From Terriglobales bacterium (GTDB taxonomy: Bacteria > Acidobacteriota > Terriglobia > Terriglobales > Acidobacteriaceae), in contig JANWKU010000109.1 of the NCBI GenBank assembly GCA_025451215.1, positions 1-64,000 on the forward strand: DNA of 64,000 nucleotides, in the 5' to 3' direction. The position numbers and the translations under genes were made by a program. Every line of letters begins with the position of its first letter. Positions within the stretch are counted from its first letter, which is position 1. A model generated the notes under the pieces. The model was not told where the DNA came from. It searched no databases and was given only the letters and a program-made list of their open reading frames with translations. This document shows, piece after piece, positions 3,454 to 34,074 of the stretch.

Positions 3454-4677
3454 TCAAGCCAATACGGAGGAGGTGCGCGCTAAATGTCCGGCGTTCCCAT
3501 TCGCGTCCATCAGGAGCGTGGACATCGCCAGAAGCATCCACGCCTGCGACCACCTCATGTACGAGGTACGTACTTTCGAAAGACGGTTGACCCGGTAGTA
3601 GAAGAATCCTCGATCATCCCACATGTGTTTCATCGCCCAATCGAATACGGAATGGGCCAGCTTGACATTGCCGGGATCAAGTTCCTTAAAAGCAATGAGC
3701 GTCAGGATGCTTTGCGCCACGCAATGAATGTCTAGAGGATAGGCTTGATTGTGGAAGTATTTCGGAGCAGAATCCTCGCGAAAGAAGTTGGCGCGGTAGA
3801 ACTCAAATCCGCGGCGAATACTGGAATAAAATTCTTGGGTCTCTAGGTCCCGGCCCATAGACTGCAAAGCATCCAGGTTATAACCCGTGTGGAAATTGTC
3901 AATCCAATGGGCCTTCGCTGACTCGCCGTAATACCATGAACCGTCTGCACGCTGCTTAGAGACCGCATATCGTGCTACCAGAAGCGCCGGATCAATGAAC
4001 TTTCGATCATTGGTAATGCGTGCAACCCGGCATAGAAGCGCGGCAGCCAACAAGTTCGCATTATAAGTCTGCGATTTGTGCCCGGGCATGGGGTAAGAAA
4101 ATCCTGCTGCTGCACCCTTTGACCAGTAAAGATCATTCAGAATGTATTCGGCGGCGCTGACCGCCATTTTGAGGCAACGTTTATCTCCCATCTGCTCATA
4201 TGCATCCAGTAAAGATGTGGCAACGAAAGTGGTACAGACTACGTTGGGAGCTCCCACGGGCACCAGCAAAGTTCTCGTCTGCCATGGAAAGCTATACCCC
4301 CAGCAATCGTACTGGATGTTTTTCGAGCGCAGATCCTGCAAACTGCAAATCATGTACTGCACAAGCTGGGCACGATCGGGAACATCCGCAGGCGTGAGCC
4401 GCAGAAATGAGCAGAGAAAAAGCGCTATCGCTTTCGGGTTTTGAGTTTTCGGAATCCCTGCAAGAGACCGTACATTAATCGGGCTTCGCTTGAAAGTCTG
4501 CGTTAAAACCAGCCGGGGAACCCGGGAATTCAAAAACGGCAGTTTCGCGAATATAAGGCTATTCAATGCGTCGTAAGGATCGTGACCAGCCCATTTTTCG
4601 GCACGGCAATATTCAACGAGCTTGCATATTGCAGTCTGAAGTTCGTTACCTGCGTGAATCGGAAAACTTGATTCCAT
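3454..4677 (-). CDS. Alpha/alpha-barrel polysaccharide biosynthesis protein (VpsJ-like)
   Basis: A 407-residue protein without signal peptide or membrane segments. It has repeated helical hairpins rich in Trp, Tyr and His: CWGYSFPWQTR, GFSYPMPGHKSQTYNAN, GSWYYGESAKAHWIDNFH, YFHNQAYPLDIHC. This is the pattern of six-hairpin (alpha/alpha)6-barrel proteins found in polysaccharide loci, for example VpsJ-like proteins. Homologues are often misnamed delta-aminolevulinate dehydratase. It could be a lyase, epimerase or hydrolase acting on uronate-type sugars. That is fold inference and no catalytic residue can be assigned with confidence. It sits between the DUF354 and deacetylase genes with very short gaps. 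Confidence 0.6.
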   Translation of the reverse strand: MESSFPIHAGNELQTAICKLVEYCRAEKWAGHDPYDALNSLIFAKLPFLNSRVPRLVLTQTFKRSPINVRSLAGIPKTQNPKAIALFLCSFLRLTPADVPDRAQLVQYMICSLQDLRSKNIQYDCWGYSFPWQTRTLLVPVGAPNVVCTTFVATSLLDAYEQMGDKRCLKMAVSAAEYILNDLYWSKGAAAGFSYPMPGHKSQTYNANLLAAALLCRVARITNDRKFIDPALLVARYAVSKQRADGSWYYGESAKAHWIDNFHTGYNLDALQSMGRDLETQEFYSSIRRGFEFYRANFFREDSAPKYFHNQAYPLDIHCVAQSILTLIAFKELDPGNVKLAHSVFDWAMKHMWDDRGFFYYRVNRLSKVRTSYMRWSQAWMLLAMSTLLMDANGNAGHLARTSSVLA

Positions 4678-4686
4678 CTGTCGGCG

Positions 4687-5844
4687 TTACTGCTCCATAA
4701 TCCCCGTGATGTTGCTAACTACCACGTCCAGAGTCATATATTGATTTGGCCTGCCACCGAAAGTTTTATTGCGGGGCACCAGCTTAAGCTTCTCGCGCAC
4801 ATCTTGCTCGCTTTCCAGCAGCACCAGCTTGCCAGTCTCCGCCAGGTGCTTATCCACGGCGCCCATCGTCCCGCGGAATAAACTGTAAACCGGCACTCCC
4901 AAAGCTGCGGCTTCGCGGTTCATCGTTCCGCCCCCGCTGATGACCACGTCTGAGTACCAGATCAGATCCAGTCCGTCCACCGCGTGCTTGGGCACAACAA
5001 TTCTTCCCTCGGCAAACAGATGCGGCACTGCTTCTCGCAACTCCGCTTCCTGCTTGTGGGTACGCGGTAATAGAATCACTTTGACCCTGGGATTTGCACT
5101 CACCAACTCAAACACAACCAGCAAAAGTTTTTCGCTCTCAGGATTGTGATAGTGGGCCTCGGTCGCCGGCGGACGAACGGTAACCACAATTTCGGTTTCC
5201 TTAAGTCCGAGAACATCTTTAAGTGTGGGATCGGGCTCGAAGAATGGGGTGTAAACATCTTCCTTAATTCCTGGATAATGCAATACATGCCCCTTCAGCA
5301 TCCCATTTTTTTCGAAAGCCTCGGACGGAATCACATCGGGCGTCATGACCCATTGCTTATTCGAGGATCCTAACCATGTCGTCAGACTATGATTGGCGTG
5401 CTCATAGTCCGAAATATTGATGCTTCGAATCCCGAGCAATGCGGACAGCACCAACAGGGTGCGGGATCCGTGACAAACGCTGATTGCAGGTTTTTCGCGA
5501 AGAACGAATGGCATCATCTGCAATACACGAATGCCCAACCCTACTACCTTGGCGATGGGATTTTTTCCATAGTGATGACCAATCTTCTGGTATTTCAAAC
5601 CCGCCATATCTGCGAGTTCGCAAACCTGAAAGCAGTCTCTCGCGGTCAGCACTACTTCACAACCGCGCTCTTTCAGCTCCTTAATAATGGGATCAAAAAA
5701 CGGAATATGAGGAGAATTTTCCAGGTCGATCCAAACCTTCCCACCGATTCGCCGGATTCTCCTGTCGCGCTTCACGTTTTCAGATTCCAGTGCAGGCGTG
5801 ACTTGATTAAGTTCTGGTTCTCGTGCCGTTTTAGTTGATGACAT
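4687..5844 (-). CDS. DUF354 family protein (GT-B fold)
   Basis: A 385-residue protein. After about 33 variable residues it begins with KVWIDLENSPHIPFFDP, the hallmark opening of DUF354 proteins, which have a GT-B fold related to UDP-GlcNAc 2-epimerase and MurG. The C-terminal half has SDVVISGGGTMNREAAALG, the nucleotide-sugar-binding loop of such folds. Known relatives lie in archaeal and bacterial surface-polysaccharide clusters. It is 3 nt downstream of the aminotransferase (5848-7062), consistent with a glycosyltransferase or epimerase step after the amino-sugar is made. No membrane segment is seen. Confidence 0.78.
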   Translation of the reverse strand: MSSTKTAREPELNQVTPALESENVKRDRRIRRIGGKVWIDLENSPHIPFFDPIIKELKERGCEVVLTARDCFQVCELADMAGLKYQKIGHHYGKNPIAKVVGLGIRVLQMMPFVLREKPAISVCHGSRTLLVLSALLGIRSINISDYEHANHSLTTWLGSSNKQWVMTPDVIPSEAFEKNGMLKGHVLHYPGIKEDVYTPFFEPDPTLKDVLGLKETEIVVTVRPPATEAHYHNPESEKLLLVVFELVSANPRVKVILLPRTHKQEAELREAVPHLFAEGRIVVPKHAVDGLDLIWYSDVVISGGGTMNREAAALGVPVYSLFRGTMGAVDKHLAETGKLVLLESEQDVREKLKLVPRNKTFGGRPNQYMTLDVVVSNITGIMEQ

Positions 5845-5847
5845 TGC

Positions 5848-7062
5848 TTAGCCTACAACAGTAATGTTACGGGAAATGCATTCTGCCGTCTGGTCGGCAA
5901 CACGATCCTGCATCTCTTTGGTTAGCCCCGGAAACATAGGCAATGAAAGGATTTCGCCGGCGATACGTTCGCAAACAGGGAAATCTCCATTGCTATATCC
6001 TAATCCCGTATAAGCTTTCTGCAAATGGAGTGGTATGGGATAGTGAATTCCGGAATCAATTCCTGCCGCCCCTAGATGATCCCTAAGTTGTTGCCGATCA
6101 GCAACCCGAACCACAAAAAGATGATATACAGCTTTGGACCACTCCGGTTCGTACGGAAGTACGACGCCATCCTGGCTTCCAAGCAACTGGCGGTAGCGCG
6201 TGGCATGTTGCCGCCGTTTTTCGTTCCAATCCCGCAGATGCTTCAGTTTTACACTTAAAAAACCGGCTTGAATCGCATCCAAGCGGCCGTTATAGCCTTC
6301 CATATCGTGATAGTACTTCTTCGCCTGGCCATGATCGCGCAACATGCGGCATTTTCCAGCAATTTCAGCATCATTCGTGGTCACCGCTCCAGCTTCACCG
6401 CAGGCACCCAAATTTTTACCCGGATAGAAACTGAATGCAGCGGCTCGTCCCATGGAACCAGCCTTCATCCAGCGATTATGTTTCTTGGAGAAGTATTCAG
6501 CGCCATGAGCCTGGCAGGCATCTTCAATTAGCGTGAGTCCATATTTCTCGGCAAGTCTAAGAATGCCATCCATATCGGCCATTTGTCCGTAGAGATGCAC
6601 GGGTACTATAGCCGTCACCGGCCTGCCGCTGCGATAACTGATGAGCTTTCCAGTCTTGTCTCGCTTGCATCGCAGGAGAAACTCTTCGAGTCTTTCTGGC
6701 GCCATATTGTAGGTGCGCTCGTTAATGTCCACGAATTCTGGGAGAGCTCCGGTCTGTGAAATTGCCTCCGTGGTTGCAATGAATGTGTGAGGCACAGTGA
6801 GAACGACGTCGCCAGACTGAATGCCACATGCCATAAGAGCAAAGCGTAGAGCATCGGTCCCACTGCTTACGGCGATCGAATGACTCGTGCTGCAGAATTC
6901 GGCGAATGCCCTCTCGAAATTCTCCACTGCTGGACCGCCGATAAATGCGGCGCTACGCAGCGCATGGCGAAAAATGTCCGTCAGCTCCTGCTCCAGTTCC
7001 ACGTGCGGCCCAACCAGATCAAGAAAAGGAATACTTTTCGGTTTACCATTCCCAATACTCAC
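5848..7062 (-). CDS. DegT/DnrJ/EryC1/StrS aminotransferase (WbpE/WlbC-like)
   Basis: A 404-residue PLP-dependent sugar aminotransferase. It has SSGTDALRFALMACG (PLP phosphate), LIEDACQAHGAEY (Asp for the ring nitrogen), and SFYPGKNLGACGEAG with the Schiff-base Lys. The order of Gfo/Idh/MocA dehydrogenase, acetyltransferase and this aminotransferase matches the WbpB-WbpD-WbpE set. In that pathway a 3-keto nucleotide sugar is aminated and then N-acetylated. The start overlaps the acetyltransferase stop by 4 nt. It is a confident family call; the exact substrate is inferred from its neighbours. Confidence 0.9.
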   Translation of the reverse strand: MSIGNGKPKSIPFLDLVGPHVELEQELTDIFRHALRSAAFIGGPAVENFERAFAEFCSTSHSIAVSSGTDALRFALMACGIQSGDVVLTVPHTFIATTEAISQTGALPEFVDINERTYNMAPERLEEFLLRCKRDKTGKLISYRSGRPVTAIVPVHLYGQMADMDGILRLAEKYGLTLIEDACQAHGAEYFSKKHNRWMKAGSMGRAAAFSFYPGKNLGACGEAGAVTTNDAEIAGKCRMLRDHGQAKKYYHDMEGYNGRLDAIQAGFLSVKLKHLRDWNEKRRQHATRYRQLLGSQDGVVLPYEPEWSKAVYHLFVVRVADRQQLRDHLGAAGIDSGIHYPIPLHLQKAYTGLGYSNGDFPVCERIAGEILSLPMFPGLTKEMQDRVADQTAECISRNITVVG

Positions 7063-7571
7063 TTTGAAACCTCCTTGCCCTGCTTGATATTACGAAAGAT
7101 TCGTGCAGGATTGCCTGCCACAATTGTGTTTGGTGGAACATCTTTAGTTACGACGGCACCCGCTCCTACGATGGCATTTTCACCGATCGTAGTCTTGGCA
7201 AGAATCGTTGCACCGGAACCAATCGACGCTCCCTTTTCCACCACTGTCCGTTCGACCTCCCAATGCGCCTCGGTCTGAAGTTCGCCATTGTCAGTGGTCG
7301 CTCGCGGGTAACTGTCATTGATGAACATGACACCATGCCCGATGAAAACGTTGTCCTGGATAATGACGCCCTCGCAAATAAAGGTATGACTCGATATCTT
7401 GCAGCGTTTGCCGACGCTGGCATTTTTTTGGATTTCAACAAAGGCGCCTATTTTGGATTCATCGCCCACTTCACATCCGTATAAGTTGATGAACTTTGAA
7501 AGTTTGACGTCGCGCCCAAGTTTTACATCCGGCGCAACGCACACATAAGGATTAGTAGCTGGATTAATCAT
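7059..7571 (-). CDS. Left-handed beta-helix N-acetyltransferase (WbpD/WlbB-like)
   Basis: About 170 residues made almost wholly of hexapeptide repeats, for example VAPDVKLGRDVKLS, IGSGATILAKTTIGENAIVG, then the C-terminal AGAVVTKDVPPNTIVAGNPAR cap shared by sugar O/N-acetyltransferases. It has an expected Asn/His environment around HGVMFINDSYPR. I prefer the ATG at 7571 because homologues begin near MINPATNPYV. A longer TTG start at 7649 would add 26 lysine-rich residues. It would acetylate the amino group set by the neighbouring aminotransferase using acetyl-CoA. It overlaps that gene by 4 nt. Confidence 0.85.
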   Translation of the reverse strand: MINPATNPYVCVAPDVKLGRDVKLSKFINLYGCEVGDESKIGAFVEIQKNASVGKRCKISSHTFICEGVIIQDNVFIGHGVMFINDSYPRATTDNGELQTEAHWEVERTVVEKGASIGSGATILAKTTIGENAIVGAGAVVTKDVPPNTIVAGNPARIFRNIKQGKEVSK

Positions 7572-7758
7572 TTTCTCTGTATTTGCGCAGTTTGATAATG
7601 GATGCTTGTAGCGCGGCGCAACCTCTTTTTTTGACAGTTTTTTAATCAATCTATTTTTGTGAATTCCCTACCGCAAAAGACCATCCTATTGCCCTCGTGG
7701 GATGGAATTGTTCAAATCGCGCTGCGTATGATTTCACAATCCATCTCCATCACTGACC

Positions 7759-9063
7759 TTACAGCCGCGAGGTTGCGGTTAGATCGCGACTGGGAAACTT
7801 TGAGGATGGCTGAGCTTCCGTTGACCCGGAATACCAGGTTCGCTGCATTCGACTTCTGCGGATGCAATCGCGAATCAGTTCTGGCTCCTCCCAAGGAACA
7901 TCGTGATAGCCAGAACGAAGAAATGCGCTTTCCGGGTCCCGCAGCCACTCTTGTGGAAAAAGAGCGATGGTGTCATTTTCCGTGGCCTTTAGAGCGGTTT
8001 TCAAATTCTCGCCTGAGAGCGCCGTATACAAAGCGGCAGGAAGGTTGCGCCTAGGGCCGAGCGCCAAGTGACCAACTTGAGTAGTTCTAGGATTTATTTC
8101 GATCAGGTAGGCGTTCCCAGTCACTGTTTCCAACATAAAATCAAATCCGTGAAATCCTGAAAGATCAAGCCGACGGACCATTTTTTCGGAAGCGGCCGCT
8201 ATTTCCGCATTCTCGACCAAACGCAGCACTGTCGCTGGGCCGGTTGCAGACCTCTTGTTGATCACTTCAAATTGCAGCATCGCAAGAACAGCGCCTTTCC
8301 AGCAAATGGCGGCGCTGGTTGCTTCCCGCCCCGCTACGTAGGCCTGGGCATTCACGATGTACCGCCGCCGCAGAAGGGATGGCCATAACAGGGTCTTATC
8401 TCCGTCCACCAAAGCGCGTTTCGCCGCTCGAGCCAAAAGAGGAGGGGCTTGGAGCTTGCGAAACGCATGTTCCGCTTCCGGCACCGTGGAAACGATCCGC
8501 GTCCCGTATCCCCCCGAACTGCCATCGGCTTTCAGCACCAGAGGAAAACTCAATTGAGCGATGCATTCGTGAAGGTCTTCTTCGCTCTGGATAACCATAG
8601 TCGCAGGGATGCGAATACCTTCTTTTTGAGCAAGTTCCATAAATGGAGATCTCGCGTACACCACCGGAAAACTCTCAGGTGCGCCTAACGAATGCTCAAT
8701 CAAGTCGCACAGTGAATTATCTTTTCGATTATGGCCTTTCCGGCGGTGCAAATGATGAAGATGACGCGTTGCCAGATCGTCTCCGGAAACAATGAAATCT
8801 GGCTTTGTGTTGCTGATCGCACTTGCAATGGACATCACCGGCGCCAGACCTGAATAACTATGCATACTATGCATGACGCTAGTTTTGGCCATGGGATGTC
8901 CTCCAGGGCATACCGCATCAACAATACAGCCTGCATTGGCAAGGGCAATGGCCAAGCGAGCTGCGGGATACCATCGGTCTGTTGTAACGATCAGAACCGT
9001 TGGTTTCAGAAGATTTGATCGTTCTATTACTGGTGGAATCTGATTTCCCCGTATGCTTGTCAT
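7759..9063 (-). CDS. ATP-grasp domain carboxylate-amine ligase-like protein
   Basis: A 434-residue protein with an N-terminal Rossmann-like region (VLIVTTDRWYPAARLAIAL) followed by an ATP-grasp domain. The ATP-grasp part shows FPLVLKADGSSGGYGT for nucleotide binding and FDFMLETVTGNAYLIEINPR, where the Glu and Asn would bind Mg. ATP-grasp ligases join a carboxylate to an amine or thiol through an acyl phosphate. In this operon it might attach an amino acid or other amine to a uronic acid, or act on a lipid or peptide. The substrate cannot be deduced. The C-terminal 50 residues are not recognisable. Confidence 0.8.
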   Translation of the reverse strand: MTSIRGNQIPPVIERSNLLKPTVLIVTTDRWYPAARLAIALANAGCIVDAVCPGGHPMAKTSVMHSMHSYSGLAPVMSIASAISNTKPDFIVSGDDLATRHLHHLHRRKGHNRKDNSLCDLIEHSLGAPESFPVVYARSPFMELAQKEGIRIPATMVIQSEEDLHECIAQLSFPLVLKADGSSGGYGTRIVSTVPEAEHAFRKLQAPPLLARAAKRALVDGDKTLLWPSLLRRRYIVNAQAYVAGREATSAAICWKGAVLAMLQFEVINKRSATGPATVLRLVENAEIAAASEKMVRRLDLSGFHGFDFMLETVTGNAYLIEINPRTTQVGHLALGPRRNLPAALYTALSGENLKTALKATENDTIALFPQEWLRDPESAFLRSGYHDVPWEEPELIRDCIRRSRMQRTWYSGSTEAQPSSKFPSRDLTATSRL

Positions 9064-23760: not shown

Positions 23761-26700
23761 TTAGTGCGACGCGTGGCGCGCGCTTGCTCTGTGCGAAGAA
23801 GATGTCGGAGCGGCGGCAGGAATTTGCAGTCGTTGCGACGGATCGCCGAGCAAAATAAATGAACGGCGAACATCGGAATCAGTGATGGCACCCTTTGCCG
23901 CCTGGATTGCGTCGCCAATCGTTTCTCCGGGAGTAAACACGGCACTTGTGAACGTTTGGTCCATTTGGAATTGCGGCCCAGGCGAAGTCAGCGAGGACGA
24001 CGCCCAAACCGCGACGGCGCCGCCGTTATTGGCCAGTAATAGAGACTCGGCCATGCTTACCGTATAGACATCCTGGAAATATCCGTTCAGGCAATTCATA
24101 ATCACGAAAACGGGCAAGCGCGGTCCATTGGTTAATGACGATGCGAGCGCGCTGGTCAGCAGGTTTTCATCCGACCACACTTCGACCGATCCGTGCCCGT
24201 CATAGTTGACCAGCAATGCACCGTTGTTGATGCCATTCAAAACCGCTTGCTGTGCGGCACTCGCGGTCATCGAACTAGCGAATACATCCGTGGCGGAAAT
24301 AGAAGGGGGTAACAGAGACTGGATGGTCTGCGCCTGTTGCGAGAAAGGTACTACGCTGTCATCCTTGTCCGCCACCATCAAGGCCTGGCTACTCCATGTT
24401 CCGGCATTTTGACCGCTGTCATATCCCACGATCTTCCCCACGACGGTTTGCGCTTCGTCGGCGGTCTGCACGGGCAGACGTCCCGTGGAAATTTGGGCAA
24501 GGCCAGCGCCGGTGAAATCGGAGAACCAGTCATCGGAAGCGGTAGTCAATTCGGCGGTAGGGACCAGCGCCGTAGGCACGAAGTCGAAGTTGCCGAACCC
24601 GAGATAATTCCGCGGATCAATGGATGCGTCCCCGACTAATAGAAGATATTTGGGAGCGTGCTTCCAGACTTTGGTTGCGTTCTGCAGAAATGTCCGAATG
24701 CTGGCGGGATCCTTTTCACCAAAATTGAATTCGTCGTAGATGTCCTGCACATTGATGAGTGCGACGGTGTGTCCCTGGCTCTGGCGCAATTGCACCAGTG
24801 GAGCCATCTGGGTCAAAAAGTCTGGCGCGGAAATCATGACCAGGTCAGCGCCGGACTGCGCATTGTGCCAATTGGAAGGCTGGTTCGCGGTAATGCTTGC
24901 GGGCTGGCCGATCTGATCGTCCGCCAGGGCCAATATCTGGTGCGTCACCGATTGGAAGCCGGCGACATTGATATCCAGAGCAATGTTTCCTGACTGTGTG
25001 CGCACGCGGAAAGGCAATTCCAGGGGCGCTCCGGGATTTGTGATGTCGAGCACTTGCGTGGGCGTCTGCTGGAAGTTCTTCACGGTCACTAGATCTCCGC
25101 CCTGGGCCGTGAATTTAAGCGTGTCTGATTCCGCCGTATAGCTGCGCGGATACGTCAGCGTAATGTGGTCTACCAGGCTGAGGTCTTCTTCCCCATTTTG
25201 CGCGGTCAGGGTCACGGTATCGCTGCCTTGCTGCAATGAATCATAAGGAACGGTGAAATCAGCCGTGCCTTCATCCTCGTTGGAGAATTGCATATCGCCC
25301 AGGGACGTGCCGTTGAAGCTGACGGTCACATCGTGGACAATTTCATCTCTACCGCCCTGCAACACGACTTCCAGTTTGGCCCCGTCACCACTCGGCGCAA
25401 GGTCCGGAGTATTCAGTACCTGGTCAACGGGTGTGGATGAAACTAGCGCTCCGAAGAAGTGGTCAGTATCGGTGCGTAGTAATGCTGCGAAGAATGTTGT
25501 CTTCTCCTGGAGCTCGACGGTCTGGGGGAAGCTTTGCGATTGCTGCCCGGAATGCGAGACGACCGCGTACCGGATGCGCGCGCCTGTTTGGTTGCCGGAA
25601 ACCAGCCAGTAGATTCTCTGGTTCGAGAAAGCCGTATCAATTCCGGTTCCGTAGAATTGAATTGCGGCCTGCCGACCAAAGCCGCCGAATCCGCCGCGGC
25701 TTCCAGTCAGCAGGATCGGCTGTTCAACTCCTTCGGCAAACAATTGCAGCGTGTCAGGATTCACGGAGGGGTTCAGTCCCGCGGCCACAAGCTGCGCCTG
25801 CGTGACGCGATACCAGCCTTCATGATCAATGGCGATCTTAATCGCCGGTCCCGCCGCGATCTGAAATTGCGTCTGCTTCGCGGTTGGCGTGCGCCAGAGC
25901 ACAGGCACGGCCTTCTTTAAATGGCTGATGGATGAATCCGAAGGAGCAGTTGAACTGTTGAAATTCGCGATGGTTACGGATGATTGCGGCAAGGAAGGTT
26001 GGCCCAACGAAGATTGCGACGATACGCTCTGGCCCATTGCGCGTGATCTGCCGTTCATGTTCCGAGCAATCGAGGGATCCATCAGGCTGGATGGCGCGCT
26101 CTCAACCGCGATCGGGCCATGCAGCGTTCTGGTGCCGTTCAAATCCACGTCTTCAAGCCAGTAAGAATTTGCGGGAGCGTTGCGGTCAAGCCATGCATAA
26201 CTCTTGCCTGAGTGGCGCGAGTCGGCGCGGCGCATCATGAGGCTTGATCCGGCGATCAGCGACGGATTCACGCGGACGCGCCGGCCATTCTGATCCCGAT
26301 AGACATTAAAGCCGAGATTGCGAACTTCTCCGCCCGTTCTCCAGGTAAGCAGCACGCCCCCTGCCGTGGATATCGCCGAAAAAGATTGCAGTTTGACCTC
26401 GGTGGTGAAGGTGATGGTGGAAAGGAATGTGGAAGTGTTATTGGCCAGCACCGAATCAAATTGTGCCGCCGTAACGGTCGCGGTGTTGCTCACCTGGGCA
26501 GGGACACCTGCGACTACTTGGATATTAAATACGACGGTGGCATTTAGGGCTAACGATGCCGCAGTGCAAGTAACGGTCCGGGTGAGGGCCACATAACTGC
26601 ACCCCGCCGAGGCGGAACTAAATGTAACGCCTGTCGGCAGTACGTCCGTGGCAGTCACCGTCGTCGCCGTAGAAGGCCCGTTGTTGTGCGCCGTAAGAAT

Positions 26701-29700
26701 GTAGCTAAATGTCGTTCCCTGCTTTACCGGATTGGCGGAGGCAGTTTTAACGATTGAAATCTCGGCACTTGCGCCAATCACCGTGGTCACGGAAGAAGTA
26801 TTGTTCGCGGAGGTGGGATCGGTCTGAGATGCGCTGACCACGGCGGTATTCACCGCGGAACCAACAGTCTGCGCAATCACTGAAATGGTAAACACAGCCG
26901 TTGCATTCACTGCGAGGCTAGCGGCCGTACAGGTCACTGTTCCGGCACTGAATGAACATCCTCCACTGGCAGAGCTGAAGCTCACTTGCGAAGGCAGAGT
27001 GTCGGTGACAACAATGGTGGTGGCAACGGTTGGGCCGTTGTTTTTCGCGGTCAGCGTGTAAGTAATCGTGTCGCCTTGATTCGCCGTCGCGGGCCCGGTT
27101 TTGGTAATGGACATATCAGACGCGGGAAGGATGGTCGTAGATGCGCTGGCGGTATTGTTGACCAGGTTGTAGTCGGCCTCGTTTTCAGTAACGTTCGCGG
27201 TATTGGTTACCGTTCCCACAGCCGCCGCGACTACGTTGATGGTGATCGCAGGGGTGGACGCTCCAGCGGCAAGAGTTGCAAAGTTGCAAGTGACTGTGCC
27301 CGCGGCTTGCGTACAGCTCGCGGCCGGCGTGACCGACGAGAATGTAACGCCGGCTGGAAGTGTATCCACCAATTGGACCGCACTGGCTGCAGTGGCGCCG
27401 TTGTTGGTGATGCCAAGCGAATACGAGAACGTACTACCCAGGAGAGCAGTGGCCGGGGCTGTCTTGGTAACCGCCACGTCAATACAGGTCGCGCTGAAGT
27501 GCGGCCCGGGCGTGGACGCATAAGTAATATTGGTCGCGCTGGTTCCCGCCTGGCCGTCGGTTGCACCATATTGAAACTGGCCGGGAGCAGGCAAAGTTGT
27601 TCCATGCGTACCTGCGGCAATATTGACAGTGCCCGCACCGGAAAGCAGCACTACACCACCACCGCCGCCACCGCCGGGTCCATGGCGGTCCGCGATCGGA
27701 GGACCAGCAGCCGCGTCATCATCCCATGCGTCGCCGCCGCTTCCACCCGCGGCGTTGGCGGTTAACGTACCTACCGCGCCTCCGGTGGAGAGGACGATTA
27801 CCGTGCCCCCAGCGCCGCCGCCACCGCCTGCATCGTTAGAGGTCAGATCGTAAGCGTTTGCGCCGTTTGCCGACATCGTTCCAGTTCCAGTGATGCTGCC
27901 CGCGCGAACGATAATGATGCCGCCGCCCGCGGCTCCACTACTGGCCTGGGCGATTCGGGTAGAAGCCGCTCCTGCTACGTTGTTATTGCTATTGTTGCGC
28001 GAGCCTGCACCGCCGCCGCCGCCCATTGTCACCCGGCCCGAACTTGACGGGAAAGGCGAACCGCCAAGTCCGCCCACGCTTAAATTGGAATCCCATGCAT
28101 CACCGCCGAAACCGCCCGCGCCACCGTTGGCTCCGCCGCCGCCGCCGGAATTCTGGTCATTCGCAGTATTCGCATCGGTCCCACCACCACCAGCATTGCC
28201 CGGCGCGCCGCGTCCCATACCGCCATTGGGATATCCATCCACTCCGGTGGAGAACGGTGTGTTCGCGACTTCCAGCCACATTGGAGTGCCGGCAATACCT
28301 TCGCCTTTCGAACCATCAATGCCGGTAACCGGAACCCCGGTAAATGCAGGACCAGCAGGGTAGGTCGTGGGCGAAGCTTGCCGATAGTCATTTGTACTCG
28401 AACCAGCAACGCCGCCATCGAGCATGAGCCCAGCAGCGCCACGAAAACCTAGGCCGTCCACATTGATGGTCTGGGTGTTCAACGTAAGCGCGCCTGAAGT
28501 ATCAAGAACGAAAATGCCGCCAGTGGAGCCGTTCCATGCCGCAGCGGTAAGTCCAGCGCCGAGTGTTGCGGTCGCAAAATGAGGAACACGCACCACCTGG
28601 AAGGTGCGCTGGCCTTGCGTTCCAGAGGCTGCAGCAGAGTTATATCCGAACAACAGGCCGCCACCGGGTCCAGCCCCGGCAATACTCAAGGTGCCGCCGC
28701 CGACCGGAACCGCACTGGTAGCCGTAGCGAATTCATAAATTCCGGCGTTATTCAGGTTCGTCCAACCGGAGCCCGTCGAGCCATCGCCGTAGGTGCCGTC
28801 GTTATTGGAACTGATCGCTGCATCCTGCATTTGAATTATTAAAACTTCATCGCCGGAAGCGATCGGAGTGGCGCTTCCCGTTGCGGTTCCCAGCGTGATG
28901 GAAGTCGCTCCCGCGGCAACATTCGAACTGCCAGGGTAATAAGTATTGATGACGCCGGTCAGGGTGCCGCCAGCCGTCGCGGTAGGAATGGTGCAGACGT
29001 TCAACTGCGAGTAGCCGATGCCAGTGGAGGAATTGTTGCCAGTGTCGAGATCAGTCACAGTTCCCGTAACGGACACGGTATCGGGATACCCTCCACCTTG
29101 GGTTGGTGTGGCGACAATCGTGACGGTGGAACTTGCGCCGCTGCCGAGCGTACCGAGATTGCAGGTCACCACGCTTCCAACGTGCCCGCATCCCGTGCCG
29201 GTCACGGAAACGAATGTCAGTCCGGAAGGTAGTGTGTCTGTCACCGTAGCGCCTGTGGCCGTGCTGGGCCCATTATTAGTGACCACCGCCGTGTAAGTAA
29301 TATTTCCCGGGAAGGCAACGGCGGTGCCGCTCACCGCGACCGACAAGTCGGCTTGAAAAGGCCGCACGGATACCGCTCCGGCAGACCAATTGGAGTTTGC
29401 ATTGAAGGTCTCACTTAAGGGAACATTAGCGGCGCCCGCGCGCGTGGAGCCGGTGCCGTAAACGTCGGTGGTCGCTGCGCCCGACGTGCCCGTCCAAGCT
29501 TGCGTCTGCGTGGGGCCGTAGGCTGTAACTGAGTCAGTGCCGGCAATGGTGAGCGTGTCCACCACAGTATCGCCATTGGCGCTGGGAACGTTGAGCGTCG
29601 CAATCGCGGCAGCCGCGCCGTCGCCGGAGGTGAATCCGCGAATGGGCGAGGTTTGGTCTGCGCCCGTGACGTTAGTTGCGCCAACAATTGTGCCGACCAC

Positions 29701-31155
29701 TCCAGTTCCACCTGGAAGATCTAAGTTCACGACAACATTATTCGTGCCGGTGGCAGGGGCGACTAAATACCAGATCTCAACTCGCCGCGAATTGCCTGTG
29801 TCGTTGTGTGCTCCAGCCAGGGTGAGAGCTACTCCGTTATATGTAACGCTGCTCACCGTCGCACCCGTATTGCCGGTAATGTTCATGGACACACCGACAA
29901 CCAGGACATTGTTGGTCCCAGCTACGGTCGCTGGAACCGTGATAGGAACAGTTGCAGGGTTAATGGAAATCGCGCCGATCGCCCAGCTCTGCGTCGCAGG
30001 AACCGCTGTGTCCGACATAGTGACACTGGCGGCCCCAGGCTCGGTAGAACCGAAGCCGTACACGTCGGTGCCCTGCACAGCCGCAGTAGAATTTTGTCCC
30101 CATATGCCGGTCTGCCCGGCGCCAGCACTGGCGGTTTCATCGCCGGAAAGCGCGGAGGTATCAATGACCATTGCGCCGACGCTGCTTGTAACTACCACCG
30201 AGGGACTACCCGTATTTCCAACGCTTCCAGCAAAAGTTCCAACCGGGGTGGACTGACTTACATTTGTGAATGAGGCAACGCCCACCACTGCGCCGACCCT
30301 AGTTCCGTTCGTACCTGTAAAGCTGACAACGATACTATTGGCACCGGCGGGGGGATTGAGAACGCGATACATTTGCACTCTGCGACGATTTAGCGCATCC
30401 GTCTCAGTACCTAATGCAGTCACAGTTGCTGCTCCGTCGGTTACCGTGTTGACGGCGACGTTGGTTCTGGCTTGATGGTTAAGAGAAACTCCTATAATCA
30501 AAAGGCGATTGGCAGTCGCACTAACAGTCAGAGGAACCGTAATGCTGGTGGTGCCCGTATGTATTTCTGCCCCTACCGAATTTGCAGCATCAAAAGCGAC
30601 CTGTGCAAACGAAGCGCCTGCAAACGCAGCCAACGCGAAAAGAAGGAAGACCAACCGCCGGAAAATAAAAACGCTGCGGAACGTTCCCAGCTTGCACGAG
30701 GTGCGCACCTGACGAATTTTCCCAGCTACTTTACTCTTTGCCATAGAAATGTTCCGCTTTATCCGCGACACGGTTCCATATAAAGAGACAGTGCAGACAC
30801 CCCCGCTTAGAGCCTCTTCCTTAGCGACCACCCGCCCAAGAATCTGTTCTGCGCGAATGCTACCGTCATCTTCAAGTGATGCATCTCCGCGAGTGATCAA
30901 AATATTTCTAGCTGCATCCATCGCGGCCAACCGATGCACACGGAAACCCCGCTCATCCTTGAACAAAACAATGTCTCCGACTGAGAGGATCCGGGTATTC
31001 ACTCGTTCCACGCGCAGCACTTCGCCATCGCGAATCGTGGGCGACATGCTCGCGCCAACCGCGCGAAAGCAGAAGCTCTTCCCGCCGCTCATCAGCTCGC
31101 CGGCAAGTTCATTAAATAAATTCGAGTCAGGCCTATCTTGGGCGCTGGAATTCAA
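23761..31155 (-). CDS. Giant S26-like / DUF11 / gingipain-type C25 peptidase protein
   Basis: One open frame of 2464 residues. It begins at TTG 31155 behind GGAG and overlaps the kinase gene by 23 nt. Residues 1-135 are a signal-peptidase-like S26 domain with Ser36 (GASMSPT), His74 (FRVHRL) and Asp91 (ITRGDAS), the Ser-His-Asp set of the SipW/ER type. A second possible start at ATG 30744 (residue 138) opens a basic segment and signal-like helix ending ASFAQ. Then follow two long beta repeats (about 185-600), a DUF11 repeat near 605, a Gly-rich stretch (975-1170), three more DUF11 repeats (1225-1578) and a fibronectin-like part. A C25 peptidase (about 2095-2445) ends the protein, with His2321 (YDGHGS) and Cys2355 (MNCLNG). 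No sorting tail is seen. It may be one fusion or two overlapping products. Confidence 0.85.
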   Translation of the reverse strand: MNSSAQDRPDSNLFNELAGELMSGGKSFCFRAVGASMSPTIRDGEVLRVERVNTRILSVGDIVLFKDERGFRVHRLAAMDAARNILITRGDASLEDDGSIRAEQILGRVVAKEEALSGGVCTVSLYGTVSRIKRNISMAKSKVAGKIRQVRTSCKLGTFRSVFIFRRLVFLLFALAAFAGASFAQVAFDAANSVGAEIHTGTTSITVPLTVSATANRLLIIGVSLNHQARTNVAVNTVTDGAATVTALGTETDALNRRRVQMYRVLNPPAGANSIVVSFTGTNGTRVGAVVGVASFTNVSQSTPVGTFAGSVGNTGSPSVVVTSSVGAMVIDTSALSGDETASAGAGQTGIWGQNSTAAVQGTDVYGFGSTEPGAASVTMSDTAVPATQSWAIGAISINPATVPITVPATVAGTNNVLVVGVSMNITGNTGATVSSVTYNGVALTLAGAHNDTGNSRRVEIWYLVAPATGTNNVVVNLDLPGGTGVVGTIVGATNVTGADQTSPIRGFTSGDGAAAAIATLNVPSANGDTVVDTLTIAGTDSVTAYGPTQTQAWTGTSGAATTDVYGTGSTRAGAANVPLSETFNANSNWSAGAVSVRPFQADLSVAVSGTAVAFPGNITYTAVVTNNGPSTATGATVTDTLPSGLTFVSVTGTGCGHVGSVVTCNLGTLGSGASSTVTIVATPTQGGGYPDTVSVTGTVTDLDTGNNSSTGIGYSQLNVCTIPTATAGGTLTGVINTYYPGSSNVAAGATSITLGTATGSATPIASGDEVLIIQMQDAAISSNNDGTYGDGSTGSGWTNLNNAGIYEFATATSAVPVGGGTLSIAGAGPGGGLLFGYNSAAASGTQGQRTFQVVRVPHFATATLGAGLTAAAWNGSTGGIFVLDTSGALTLNTQTINVDGLGFRGAAGLMLDGGVAGSSTNDYRQASPTTYPAGPAFTGVPVTGIDGSKGEGIAGTPMWLEVANTPFSTGVDGYPNGGMGRGAPGNAGGGGTDANTANDQNSGGGGGANGGAGGFGGDAWDSNLSVGGLGGSPFPSSSGRVTMGGGGGAGSRNNSNNNVAGAASTRIAQASSGAAGGGIIIVRAGSITGTGTMSANGANAYDLTSNDAGGGGGAGGTVIVLSTGGAVGTLTANAAGGSGGDAWDDDAAAGPPIADRHGPGGGGGGGVVLLSGAGTVNIAAGTHGTTLPAPGQFQYGATDGQAGTSATNITYASTPGPHFSATCIDVAVTKTAPATALLGSTFSYSLGITNNGATAASAVQLVDTLPAGVTFSSVTPAASCTQAAGTVTCNFATLAAGASTPAITINVVAAAVGTVTNTANVTENEADYNLVNNTASASTTILPASDMSITKTGPATANQGDTITYTLTAKNNGPTVATTIVVTDTLPSQVSFSSASGGCSFSAGTVTCTAASLAVNATAVFTISVIAQTVGSAVNTAVVSASQTDPTSANNTSSVTTVIGASAEISIVKTASANPVKQGTTFSYILTAHNNGPSTATTVTATDVLPTGVTFSSASAGCSYVALTRTVTCTAASLALNATVVFNIQVVAGVPAQVSNTATVTAAQFDSVLANNTSTFLSTITFTTEVKLQSFSAISTAGGVLLTWRTGGEVRNLGFNVYRDQNGRRVRVNPSLIAGSSLMMRRADSRHSGKSYAWLDRNAPANSYWLEDVDLNGTRTLHGPIAVESAPSSLMDPSIARNMNGRSRAMGQSVSSQSSLGQPSLPQSSVTIANFNSSTAPSDSSISHLKKAVPVLWRTPTAKQTQFQIAAGPAIKIAIDHEGWYRVTQAQLVAAGLNPSVNPDTLQLFAEGVEQPILLTGSRGGFGGFGRQAAIQFYGTGIDTAFSNQRIYWLVSGNQTGARIRYAVVSHSGQQSQSFPQTVELQEKTTFFAALLRTDTDHFFGALVSSTPVDQVLNTPDLAPSGDGAKLEVVLQGGRDEIVHDVTVSFNGTSLGDMQFSNEDEGTADFTVPYDSLQQGSDTVTLTAQNGEEDLSLVDHITLTYPRSYTAESDTLKFTAQGGDLVTVKNFQQTPTQVLDITNPGAPLELPFRVRTQSGNIALDINVAGFQSVTHQILALADDQIGQPASITANQPSNWHNAQSGADLVMISAPDFLTQMAPLVQLRQSQGHTVALINVQDIYDEFNFGEKDPASIRTFLQNATKVWKHAPKYLLLVGDASIDPRNYLGFGNFDFVPTALVPTAELTTASDDWFSDFTGAGLAQISTGRLPVQTADEAQTVVGKIVGYDSGQNAGTWSSQALMVADKDDSVVPFSQQAQTIQSLLPPSISATDVFASSMTASAAQQAVLNGINNGALLVNYDGHGSVEVWSDENLLTSALASSLTNGPRLPVFVIMNCLNGYFQDVYTVSMAESLLLANNGGAVAVWASSSLTSPGPQFQMDQTFTSAVFTPGETIGDAIQAAKGAITDSDVRRSFILLGDPSQRLQIPAAAPTSSSHRASARHASH
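27640..28230 (-). repeat. Gly-rich low-complexity coding stretch
   Basis: Within the giant protein gene, clusters of GGN codons (seen as GCC/ACC/TCC runs on the plus strand) encode blocks of five to seven glycines separated by Ala, Asn and Asp. Examples are DQNSGGGGGANGGAGG and GPGGGGGGGVVLL. It corresponds to residues of about 975-1170. The repeats are irregular in length and in frame with the protein, so this is a flexible linker or parallel-beta glycine-rich region, not a satellite or CRISPR. Confidence 0.7.
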
Positions 31156-32056
31156 GGATTTTCTCCACGGCAGAGTGATTGGGGAGGAATTGGAATTTGT
31201 AACAAGCGACCGTCCGCGTCAGATCATCCAGATAAGCAAGCGTGGCAGTAAGCGCCTGCGGATCGTGAAACGGCAAGAAGCAACGTGCAAACAATTCCGC
31301 TGCTGCCGCCGCTTGCGGCATCGCGACAACGTCGTTCCGCTCCCCATGTTCCAAAATAAAAATCTGATTGATCGGAGCTTCGCGTGGCGACGCAAATCCG
31401 GCATCGCCGTGCCAGGGCGTTCCGTGCATGAAAAAACGGTCGTCACGTTTGCGGACAATAATTCGGTCATCGCTTAGGATCCGGACGCCGGGCACCGATT
31501 GCCAGAGGCGCGTGGTTGTGCTCTTTCCCGCGCCGGAGTGTCCTACAAAAAGAGAACTACTGCACGCGTCGTCGGTAATGCCGCAGCCATGCACTTCAAC
31601 GCCGCGCCCTCGCGCCAATCGGTTGGTAACGATCAATTCGTCGAGCGGGTATTCGAGCGCGCGGACATTGGCTTTGTCAGGAAAGCAATCGCGCACGAAG
31701 AGTACGCGGGCGCGAGTAAAATCCCTGTCTATTAAAAGGCGCTTATAAGGTCGCGGGCCAAGAACTCGCGTCGTGAAATCGAAAACGTAATGCTCGCCGT
31801 CCTCATAAAGCGTCCATACCGCGCCTGAATCGAAAAGTTTTTTGCTATCAGCGGGAAGGAGTGAGTCAACCCATTCCAGATCAATTTCTATTTCGCAATT
31901 TTGTGCAGGGATCGCAAACGATTGGTGATCAGGATCGAGATGAACATTCATCTCTGCGGCCGTAAAGCCCAAAGTCAGATCACCGATTTGCAAGCAACAG
32001 CGCCATTTTGCCGCCTGACTTTGATTCTCTGTTTGTGTTTGCTCGCTGATCATCAT
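31133..32056 (-). CDS. HPr-kinase-like protein (PEP carboxykinase-type P-loop kinase)
   Basis: 307 residues. The C-terminal half has a P-loop LFVGHSGAGKSTTTRLW, then RILSDDRIIVRK, where the double Asp corresponds to the HprK Walker B/catalytic region, and HGTPWHGDAGFASP, typical of HprK-like proteins without the HPr partner. The N-terminal 130 residues are not recognised. Relatives occur in RiPP clusters, and some (PadeK, ThcoK) phosphorylate a serine of a lasso-peptide precursor. Start ATG 32056 has GGAG eight bases upstream and lies 16 nt after the small peptide gene, which ends in Ser. Phosphorylation of that peptide is inference. Confidence 0.82.
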   Translation of the reverse strand: MMISEQTQTENQSQAAKWRCCLQIGDLTLGFTAAEMNVHLDPDHQSFAIPAQNCEIEIDLEWVDSLLPADSKKLFDSGAVWTLYEDGEHYVFDFTTRVLGPRPYKRLLIDRDFTRARVLFVRDCFPDKANVRALEYPLDELIVTNRLARGRGVEVHGCGITDDACSSSLFVGHSGAGKSTTTRLWQSVPGVRILSDDRIIVRKRDDRFFMHGTPWHGDAGFASPREAPINQIFILEHGERNDVVAMPQAAAAAELFARCFLPFHDPQALTATLAYLDDLTRTVACYKFQFLPNHSAVEKILEFQRPR

Positions 32057-32072
32057 TCAAACGACTCCACAA

Positions 32073-32249
32073 TCAGGAACCAATTGAACTGCATCCCGTC
32101 GATGCGGTACATACCGACAAACTCGGCCCCGAAACAAACATACTTTTGCAATTTCCCAGCACCGCCTCTTCAGGACGCAAACTGATGGTCTCGCAAACCG
32201 GCGGCTGATATGGTTTTTTGCTCTTGCCGTCCTCGCGTTCATTCTTCAT
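32073..32249 (-). CDS. Candidate RiPP precursor peptide (58 aa, Cys/Ser-rich C-terminus)
   Basis: Translated directly from the sequence, the peptide is 58 residues. A charged N-terminus (MKNEREDGKSKKPYQPP) is followed by a conserved-looking leader motif TISLRPEEAVLGNCK. A Ser/Thr/Gly-rich tail with Cys at 34, 47 and 53 (another Cys at 19) ends in Ser. Its ATG at 32249 has GAGG six bases upstream and is 8 nt after the radical SAM stop, so it is translated with it. Short KPY..P..ETISLRPEEAVL-type peptides next to radical SAM/SPASM and PqqD genes are typical precursors. The modification is unknown. The longer frame from 32342 lies inside the radical SAM gene and is not the start. Confidence 0.78.
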   Translation of the reverse strand: MKNEREDGKSKKPYQPPVCETISLRPEEAVLGNCKSMFVSGPSLSVCTASTGCSSIGS

Positions 32250-32257
32250 AAAATCCC

Positions 32258-33523
32258 TCAATGCCCGCAACTTCCGCAACCGCCGGAGCTGGCGGCGGAA
32301 TGATTCAAAATCGGCAGCAAAACTTCCGAAGGCCCCGTCCACTCGCCGACATTAATTTCACGGGAGGCAATCCGCAGCGCTGACTCTTTTGCCGTTTCGT
32401 AGTGGTCGCCGCCTTCACAAAAAGCACAATCCCCGTGCGCCGGGACCTGATAGCCCAACGCCATGGCGCGCAAATGGGCGACTTCGCATAAAAATTCCAC
32501 CGGCGATTCCGCATCTCCGTTTTCCAACTCGCCATTCGCCGGACACATACCGCACAGACTGCGCAGGCGGCAATCGGTGCATTTAGAGATGGTCTTTGCC
32601 TCGCGTTTTCTTACTTGCAGAAGGAACTGCTCCCATCCCTCCTTCACGGAACCCTGGCGCAGATCGTAGGTATCCGCCTTAGACAGCACGCAAATACTCA
32701 TGCGGCCGTAAGGATCAATAGAAAAGGCACCCACGCCGCCGCCACAAACATAAAGAGAATTCTTGCCCTTGCCCCTGGCTGGCGGCGGAGATTGAATTCC
32801 CTGCTCGGCGAACCGTCGGTACTCGGCCTTAGTGTCGGGCGAGTGAAGGTCGAGCGCGACCACTTCTTCCGGCAAAAGCCGCACCGCGAGTGGACTCTGC
32901 GAGCAATCAATGCGCGGATTCATCAGGGAATCGAATTTGAATTCGAGGCCGAGATCTTCCCTCACAAAACTTCGCATGGACAATACTTCATGCTTGTTCA
33001 CGGTGGTTGCGACCGTCTTCAGCTTCAGCGGCAATCCTCGGCTACGCAGCAGATTGATGCCACGCATGCAGCGCTCATAACTGCCGGGGATTTGCGTGAG
33101 CGCCTCGTAGGTTTCTTTCGTCCTGCCATAGAGCGTGATTTCAATCGCGAACGGCGGCCATTCAAGCAGATAGTCGGCGATCTTTTCATTAATCAGATTG
33201 CCGTTCGTAAACAGAGTAACGAGAAGACCTTTTTTCTTGGCGTAGGTATAGATTTCCAGAAAATCTTTTCGGGCAAAGATTTCGCCGCCGGTGAACAACA
33301 GCCAGAAGCAACCCATCTCGGTAATTTCATCGAGCAACCGAAAATATTCTTCCTTACTCAATTCGCGGTTGCGCGCGGATAAATCTCCCATCGCCAAATT
33401 GTTGTAGCAATGCTGGCATTCCAGGGGACAGCGGTGGGTCATTTCCATGGTTACTTCGAGGGGAGTGCGGTGATTAGGCTGGTGGAGCGATCGGCTTAGC
33501 TCTGTGTAACTGCCAGGATTCAT
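32258..33523 (-). CDS. Radical SAM/SPASM peptide-modifying enzyme
   Basis: 421 residues. The radical SAM cluster motif is C32-x3-C36-x2-C39 (HRCPLECQHCY). TGGEIFARKDFLEI follows as the SAM-binding GGE motif. A SPASM-type C-terminal domain carries the Cys series in VCGGGVGAFSIDPYGRMSIC, KCTDCRLRSLCGMCP and FLCEVAH, enough for auxiliary 4Fe-4S clusters. Beyond it come DCAFCEGG and a terminal GGCGSCGH that are unusual extra Cys pairs. Start ATG 33523 has GGAG five bases upstream. With a PqqD-like protein upstream and a small Cys-rich peptide downstream, it most likely installs thioether or C-C crosslinks in that peptide. Confidence 0.92.
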   Translation of the reverse strand: MNPGSYTELSRSLHQPNHRTPLEVTMEMTHRCPLECQHCYNNLAMGDLSARNRELSKEEYFRLLDEITEMGCFWLLFTGGEIFARKDFLEIYTYAKKKGLLVTLFTNGNLINEKIADYLLEWPPFAIEITLYGRTKETYEALTQIPGSYERCMRGINLLRSRGLPLKLKTVATTVNKHEVLSMRSFVREDLGLEFKFDSLMNPRIDCSQSPLAVRLLPEEVVALDLHSPDTKAEYRRFAEQGIQSPPPARGKGKNSLYVCGGGVGAFSIDPYGRMSICVLSKADTYDLRQGSVKEGWEQFLLQVRKREAKTISKCTDCRLRSLCGMCPANGELENGDAESPVEFLCEVAHLRAMALGYQVPAHGDCAFCEGGDHYETAKESALRIASREINVGEWTGPSEVLLPILNHSAASSGGCGSCGH

Positions 33524-33599: not shown

Positions 33600-33902
33600 T
33601 TAAGCTGCCATCTCGCGAACCAGTCCCGCATCCGTAATCTTGTCGAGAAAAGTCCGCACATCCTGTTCCGCCGTCTCGGGCGTTACTTCGTATTCATCCA
33701 AAACCAAGCTGACCAATTCTTCGCAAGTTTTCGCAGGCTGGAGTTGCCGCCATAAAAAACTTCCCAGTTCATTTAGGCTATAAATCGAGGCCAGATCACC
33801 CACGCCGCCGCGCACAGGAACGATGAGAGTCTCTCCTGCGATCACTCGCGCAACCACGCTATCCGACTGCATGTAACGGCAACTCGCTACGATGGTTGTC
33901 AT
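33600..33902 (-). CDS. PqqD-like peptide-recognition protein (RRE)
   Basis: I place the start at ATG 33902, with GAGG eight bases upstream, giving 100 residues; an ATG at 33965 would add 21 atypical residues. The fold pattern is a small beta-sheet (SVVARVIAGETLIVPVRGG) plus winged-helix part (YSLNELGSFLWRQL; CEELVSLVLDEYEVTPE; DVRTFLDKITDAGLV), as in PqqD. PqqD-type domains bind the leader of a precursor peptide and deliver it to the radical SAM enzyme. That enzyme is the next gene, 76 nt downstream. It is the first gene of the five-gene operon. Confidence 0.88.
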   Translation of the reverse strand: MTTIVASCRYMQSDSVVARVIAGETLIVPVRGGVGDLASIYSLNELGSFLWRQLQPAKTCEELVSLVLDEYEVTPETAEQDVRTFLDKITDAGLVREMAA

Positions 33903-34074
33903 GCTTTCTGCCTCATCTAATCGCACTCGTGCGGTGTCCAGATTCTGGATACTGCCGCTAACCATAACAAACTTTTCATACTTACATCATTTGCTAGATT
34001 GGTACCGCCCTGTTGTACCGAGGCGAGCGCTTTGGCGCCCTTGAAGGAAATTCGAGTTCGATGCGGAGGAATAT

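Follow-up and report, generated by a model that had tools for sequence, protein, structure and literature searches.

A conserved 58-residue peptide gene beside radical SAM and HprK-like kinase genes probably encodes a RiPP precursor in Acidobacteriota

The small ORF lying between the radical SAM (rSAM) and HprK-like kinase genes of the window (the whole stretch of 64,000 nt analyzed) is a real gene, and it probably encodes the precursor of a RiPP that is processed by a PqqD protein, an rSAM enzyme, an HprK-like kinase, and a SipW/SEC11-like peptidase domain. The operon is compact and ordered PqqD, rSAM, peptide, HprK-like kinase, and SipW/SEC11-type peptidase, the last being fused to a giant C25 (gingipain-like) protein (Table 1). 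The computations directly show the gene and its conservation, the operon, the families and folds of the enzymes, and their catalytic residues. The peptide has the general features of a RiPP precursor: a short ORF beside an RRE and a modifying enzyme, with a conserved leader and a variable core. In the proposed pathway, PqqD would bind the leader at its YxxP motif and present the peptide; YxxP is the leader motif bound by the discrete RREs of lasso systems and of linear polyphosphorylated peptides (LPPs) of Bacillota (PMC13381572, 2026). The rSAM/SPASM enzyme would then modify the Ser/Gly/Cys-rich core, most likely by forming thioethers between Cys and backbone carbons, the kinase would (poly)phosphorylate Ser at the C-terminus in the manner of PadeK in lasso peptides, and the peptidase domain would cut off the leader near the junction of AVLG and NCK (VLG and xCK in the family). 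The giant exported C25 protease, attached or adjacent, is a conserved partner that may contribute a further step. The order of these steps and the final product are proposed by analogy with known systems.

Table 1. Coordinates of the cassette and of elements within the peptide gene.
Feature	Position	Strand	Basis or remark
PqqD-family discrete RRE/peptide chaperone	33600..33965	(-)	PF05402, 61.6 bits
Radical SAM/SPASM enzyme, Gly/Cys-rich C-terminal tail	32258..33523	(-)	CxxxCxxC and seven SPASM Cys invariant
GAGG ribosome-binding site; the stop codon of rSAM overlaps it	32256..32259	(-)	
Precursor peptide gene, 58 aa, ATG start	32073..32249	(-)	Translation MKNEREDGKSKKPYQPPVCETISLRPEEAVLGNCKSMFVSGPSLSVCTASTGCSSIGS; homologue searches
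YQPP, the YxxP leader motif	32199..32210	(-)	Invariant (87/87); motif known from lasso/LPP leaders (PMC13381572)
SLRPEEAVLG block, end of predicted leader	32154..32183	(-)	Homologue alignment
Predicted core NCKSMFVSGPSLSVCTASTGCSSIGS	32076..32153	(-)	Putative cleavage site
Cys34, invariant, in xCK	32148..32150	(-)	Homologue alignment
Cys47, conserved, position shifts slightly	32109..32111	(-)	Homologue alignment
Cys53, invariant; lies five residues before the end in 83/87	32091..32093	(-)	Homologue alignment
C-terminal Ser58, proposed phosphorylation site	32076..32078	(-)	Ser in 86/87
HprK/PEPCK-fold kinase	31133..32056	(-)	Conserved His156, Lys178, Asp196, Asp197; fold match of model
SipW/SEC11-type peptidase domain (Ser36-His74-Asp91), N-terminal part of giant ORF	30730..31155	(-)	
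2464-aa ORF: peptidase domain, signal-anchor-like segment, DUF11 repeats, C-terminal Peptidase_C25	23761..31155	(-)	
Peptidase_C25 domain, conserved His2321 and Cys2355	23827..24849	(-)	

A preliminary description had proposed a 58-residue precursor-like peptide with its own ribosome-binding site. The ORF was recovered together with homologues in 4 of 40 related genomes (E 9e-17 to 4e-9), and the minus-strand sequence around the start (TGAGGGATTTTATGAAG) can be read directly as GAGG, six bases, and ATG, with 8 nt between the rSAM stop and the ATG, as described. A GTG-started version of 89 aa is also open; it is disfavored, as both the homologues and the ribosome-binding site back the ATG. No NCBIfam or Pfam family matched the peptide. 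In the homologue alignment, the conserved leader part of the gene showed a pS of 0.73 compared with a pN of 0.25, codons changed freely at invariant positions, and the C-terminal Ser was written by six different codons, both TCN and AGY. The excess of pS over pN and the six Ser codons indicate selection on the protein. In locus L148, the peptide opens a divergent operon with the kinase and C25, on the strand opposite to rSAM, which marks it as an independent gene. A chance or non-coding ORF between two genes, as its shortness and the longer overlapping GTG frame might suggest, therefore has practically no probability left: conservation, codon evidence, co-occurrence with rSAM, and the opposite-strand position ahead of the kinase in L148 already refute it computationally.

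When 41 genomes, the window's included, were searched with the rSAM alignment, the orthologue (>850 bits) turned up in the five that have the peptide and in no others, the next-best match scoring 159 bits. Within the phylum, the peptide profile matched 39 of 396 genomes at E ≤ 0.001, though the weakest hits may come from looser relatives, and a scan of GTDB contigs for rSAM yielded 68 loci. The peptide lies directly downstream of rSAM in practically all loci whose contig continues past rSAM, and nearly all intact loci have the peptide beside rSAM, followed by kinase and peptidase. At L050, the peptide is ∼1.9 kb from rSAM; L075 has an rSAM–kinase cassette lacking an adjacent precursor, and the same genome carries a copy on another contig (L191), where at 3719-8344 (-) a precursor directly precedes the C25 giant gene. 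The family is found mainly in soil Acidobacteria; the genomes compared are mostly MAGs, and the taxon labels of L067, L078, L081, L087, and L088 are doubtful. L067 and L081 (CALQLA020...) are MAG records titled Bordetella parapertussis with an Acidobacteria-like cassette, a name that does not seem to suit the bin. The genes adjoining the window cassette are those for ModA, an aminotransferase, a metallophosphatase, and a UDP-sugar dehydrogenase. No exporter was found beside the cassette, which counts against the RiPP pathway.

The anatomy of the precursor was counted over 87 distinct (unique) homologues. The span from the Tyr through the Cys-Lys measures 22 residues in all of them; within this span, which contains the LRPEEAVLG-type block, L, E, and CK are invariant and AVL is nearly so, and the Lys following Cys34 is kept in 87/87. 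The residue two before Cys34 is G in 77, A in 7, T in 2, and V in 1. Judged from the alignment, leader and core probably part after VLG, the core starting with xCK. Relative to such a cut, position −3 would be V and position −1 mostly G/A/T. Signal peptidases prefer such residues. The resulting cores (85 distinct, 24–31 aa) consist of S (18%), G (16%), and C (12%), followed by A, T, and P, with hardly any D (0.5%) or Y (0.3%) and neither W nor E (both 0%). From the Tyr onward, 77 of the 87 homologues have three Cys; the penultimate residue is G or A in 85, and the last is S in 86 and T in 1. In the small ORFs adjoining homologous rSAM genes, the ISLRPEEAVL block is conserved and the tail varies with its Cys retained. 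The proposed division into leader and core was supported, with most of the block probably belonging to the leader. The tail with three Cys held up in part: three Cys are conserved, but the tail proper holds two, as C34 sits in GNCK, and the peptide has four in total (C19, C34, C47, and C53). C19 is not conserved; the ORF and the other Cys are conserved in related loci, contrary to the refuting outcome named in the preliminary description.

Relatives that have diverged further, some of them from beyond the phylum, retain YxxP together with an EE-VL-CK-like block. Their tails differ, the Cys being fewer or spaced otherwise, yet most still end in Ser (L186-L190, L193-L197). At L196 (8198-8545, minus strand), two tandem diverged precursors, both with a C-terminal Ser, lie beside PqqD, rSAM, HprK, and S24 as well as a gene weakly matching an NTP transferase. 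The Cys alone say less about function than do YxxP ahead of the block, the adjacent kinase, and the almost invariant Ser at the C-terminus. The diverged relative L185 has TYP at its end, though a kinase-like gene adjoins; together with a Thr-ending precursor at L100/L144, it counts against the RiPP pathway.

The cluster and SPASM Cys of the rSAM enzyme are invariant over about 83–90 alignment rows. Its nearest NCBIfam families, each scoring far below cut-off, are those of heme, PQQ, and mycofactocin enzymes and not of sactipeptide maturases, and its best PDB match is PqqE. The core has no conserved aromatic or acidic acceptor, which points to Cys chemistry; on the same composition, aromatic crosslinks and Asp/Glu ranthionine chemistry were set aside. 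Among known SPASM chemistries, thioethers from Cys sulfur to backbone carbons best suit such a core and are the most likely product, though as a guess with a chance close to even. Somewhat less probable, at roughly one chance in three, is that the same precursor undergoes other rSAM chemistry, for instance at Lys35, by epimerization or C–C bond formation, while the Cys form disulfides or bind metal. The full conservation of Lys35 and the distant affinities to heme, PQQ, mycofactocin, and PqqE enzymes would fit such chemistry, whereas the virtual absence of Trp, Tyr, and Glu acceptors, and the fact that the Cys are the most strongly conserved core residues, argue against it. The PQQ and mycofactocin layout, likewise PqqD, SPASM rSAM, and a short peptide, also raises the idea that the peptide is a cofactor source like PqqA or mycofactocin MftA rather than a secreted product. 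This is very improbable: cofactor precursors carry a fixed reactive residue pair, whereas the core here varies in sequence and length. The C-terminal tail of the rSAM enzyme (GGCGSCGH; window 32258-32300, minus strand) contains CxxC near the C-terminus in 60 of 81 homologues, some of these sequences being cut.

Pfam gave no confident match for the kinase. Its AlphaFold2 model (pLDDT 93) matched PEPCK (Z 14.2, rmsd 4.6 over 243) and HprK/P (Foldseek E 4.5e-5), and in the homologue alignment, H156, K178, and D196 are invariant and D197 is kept in 78 of 79. By model and alignment, the protein has the HprK/PEPCK fold with the Walker and His-Lys-Asp-Asp features. HprK-like kinases that phosphorylate lasso precursors at their conserved C-terminal Ser are reported to have this His-Lys-Asp-Asp set (PMC9266682). 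In LPP biosynthesis, an HprK-like kinase phosphorylates a core Ser at core position 3 (PMC13381572), whereas the site proposed here is the C-terminus. Ser persists at the C-terminus even where the Cys pattern changes, and no other sequence argument speaks as strongly for Ser, and not only Cys, being a modification site. A kinase gene was present somewhere in every genome checked, so no kinase-free contrast is available; the pairing of kinase loss with the Thr-ending precursor (L144/L100) was uninformative, as the kinase is on another contig of that genome.

The peptidase domain gave a weak Pfam S24 match. Its best solved sequence relative is human SEC11C (E 8e-9), the fold is that of signal peptidase/LexA (top rows Z 9–11), and Ser, His, and Asp are invariant in the homologue alignment; the domain has both the Ser-His(-Asp) site and the fold of SipW/ER-type signal peptidases. 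Many Acidobacteriaceae-type loci, like the window, have it in frame with the giant protein; elsewhere it is a separate gene of 170–200 aa directly after the kinase. In the fusions (window, L129, L130, L131, and many more), a basic linker and a signal-anchor-like segment ending in AQV follow, and then an exported-looking DUF11/C25 protein of 2100–2460 aa. Peptidase_C25 is at the C-terminal end in eight of nine giants scanned, the ninth (L137) being truncated at the limit of the stretch read. Alternatively, the peptidase could process or regulate the giant protein to which it is fused. The leader would then be cut off by the C25 protease or by some housekeeping enzyme, with the position behind the invariant Cys-Lys as one example of a site. 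The fusions themselves, the conserved C25 His and Cys (20/20), and three loci with C25 beside the cassette and no adjacent peptidase gene (L138, L148, and L144) lend this some weight. It nevertheless appears rather unlikely next to leader removal by the peptidase domain, given the separate peptidase gene right after the kinase in other loci and the SipW homologue that is a proven leader peptidase in the LPP system (PMC13381572).

Compared with known systems, the best reading, by analogy, is that the cassette would work like LPP and paeninodin biosynthesis yet fits neither, with rSAM added, the LPP consensus missing, and no lasso cyclase among the adjacent genes examined. The YxxP leader, discrete RRE, HprK-like kinase, and SpI/SipW-like leader peptidase are shared with LPPs. 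Of the LPP leader consensus YxxPxVLxHQxIxFETxxS, the family keeps YxxP, the remainder being replaced by LRPEEAVLG; LPPs come from another phylum, and their paper (PMC13381572) does not contain the term radical SAM, nor does its accessible part mention a C25 protein, whereas the window family has both. Locus L136 contains the full LPP-like set (SpI, RRE, HprK, NTP_transf_5, and MsbA-like ABC) plus rSAM and C25, and by this complete set the two systems are probably related. NTP_transf_5 genes lie near the cassette in L136, L131, L137, and L196, as in LPP and pseudomycoidin clusters. Profiles derived from the L136 NTP transferase and MsbA-like proteins found no match in the window, the former being a narrow query; the window's genome has two Pfam NTP_transf_5 genes on other contigs. 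Paeninodin-type lasso systems (PadeK, ThcoK, SyanK, and PsmK; PMC9266682) likewise have a YxxP-type leader, a PqqD-like B1, a His-Lys-Asp-Asp HprK-like kinase, and a C-terminal Ser, but the window family differs by its rSAM and Cys-rich core, and neither an asparagine-synthetase-like cyclase nor a transglutaminase-like B2 is among the examined genes adjoining the cassette. With sactipeptides and ranthipeptides, it would share a SPASM rSAM acting on a Cys-rich core; unlike in these, the RRE is a separate PqqD protein, a kinase is present, and there is no conserved Asp/Glu acceptor.

In the literature searched, no description of this combination of machinery was found, though subscription papers and annotations elsewhere could still contain one. 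Searches for the motif strings, SynChlorMet, HprK with rSAM and RiPP, or C25 with rSAM returned no papers, and YxxP with radical SAM only a general RRE survey. The cassette would represent a widespread and apparently undescribed RiPP family, mainly of Acidobacteriota, from which few peptide products are known. rSAM chemistry and C-terminal Ser phosphorylation on one peptide would be a pairing unreported in that literature; the family would also extend the reach of SipW-type leader peptidases past Bacillota and connect giant C25 proteins with a RiPP cassette. The furthest-reaching reading, a new RiPP class with rSAM crosslinks on the conserved Cys, a (poly)phosphorylated C-terminal Ser, and a leader peptidase inside a giant exported gingipain-like protease acting with the peptide at the cell surface, is rather unlikely. 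As the operon is small and compact, each step is directly testable in E. coli.

SynChlorMet (NCBIfam TIGR04248-04251) has PqqD, a SPASM rSAM, and the HprK-related ScmC as parts; the window differs in having one rSAM instead of two, and its scores (ScmC 31/125, ScmD 36/100, and ScmE 84/400 bits) were far below the curated cut-offs. The two-rSAM variant locus L153 also stayed below all NCBIfam cut-offs. The layout of the variant loci L152 and L153 resembles SynChlorMet: at least two rSAM genes are combined with PqqD, HprK, and a related peptide.
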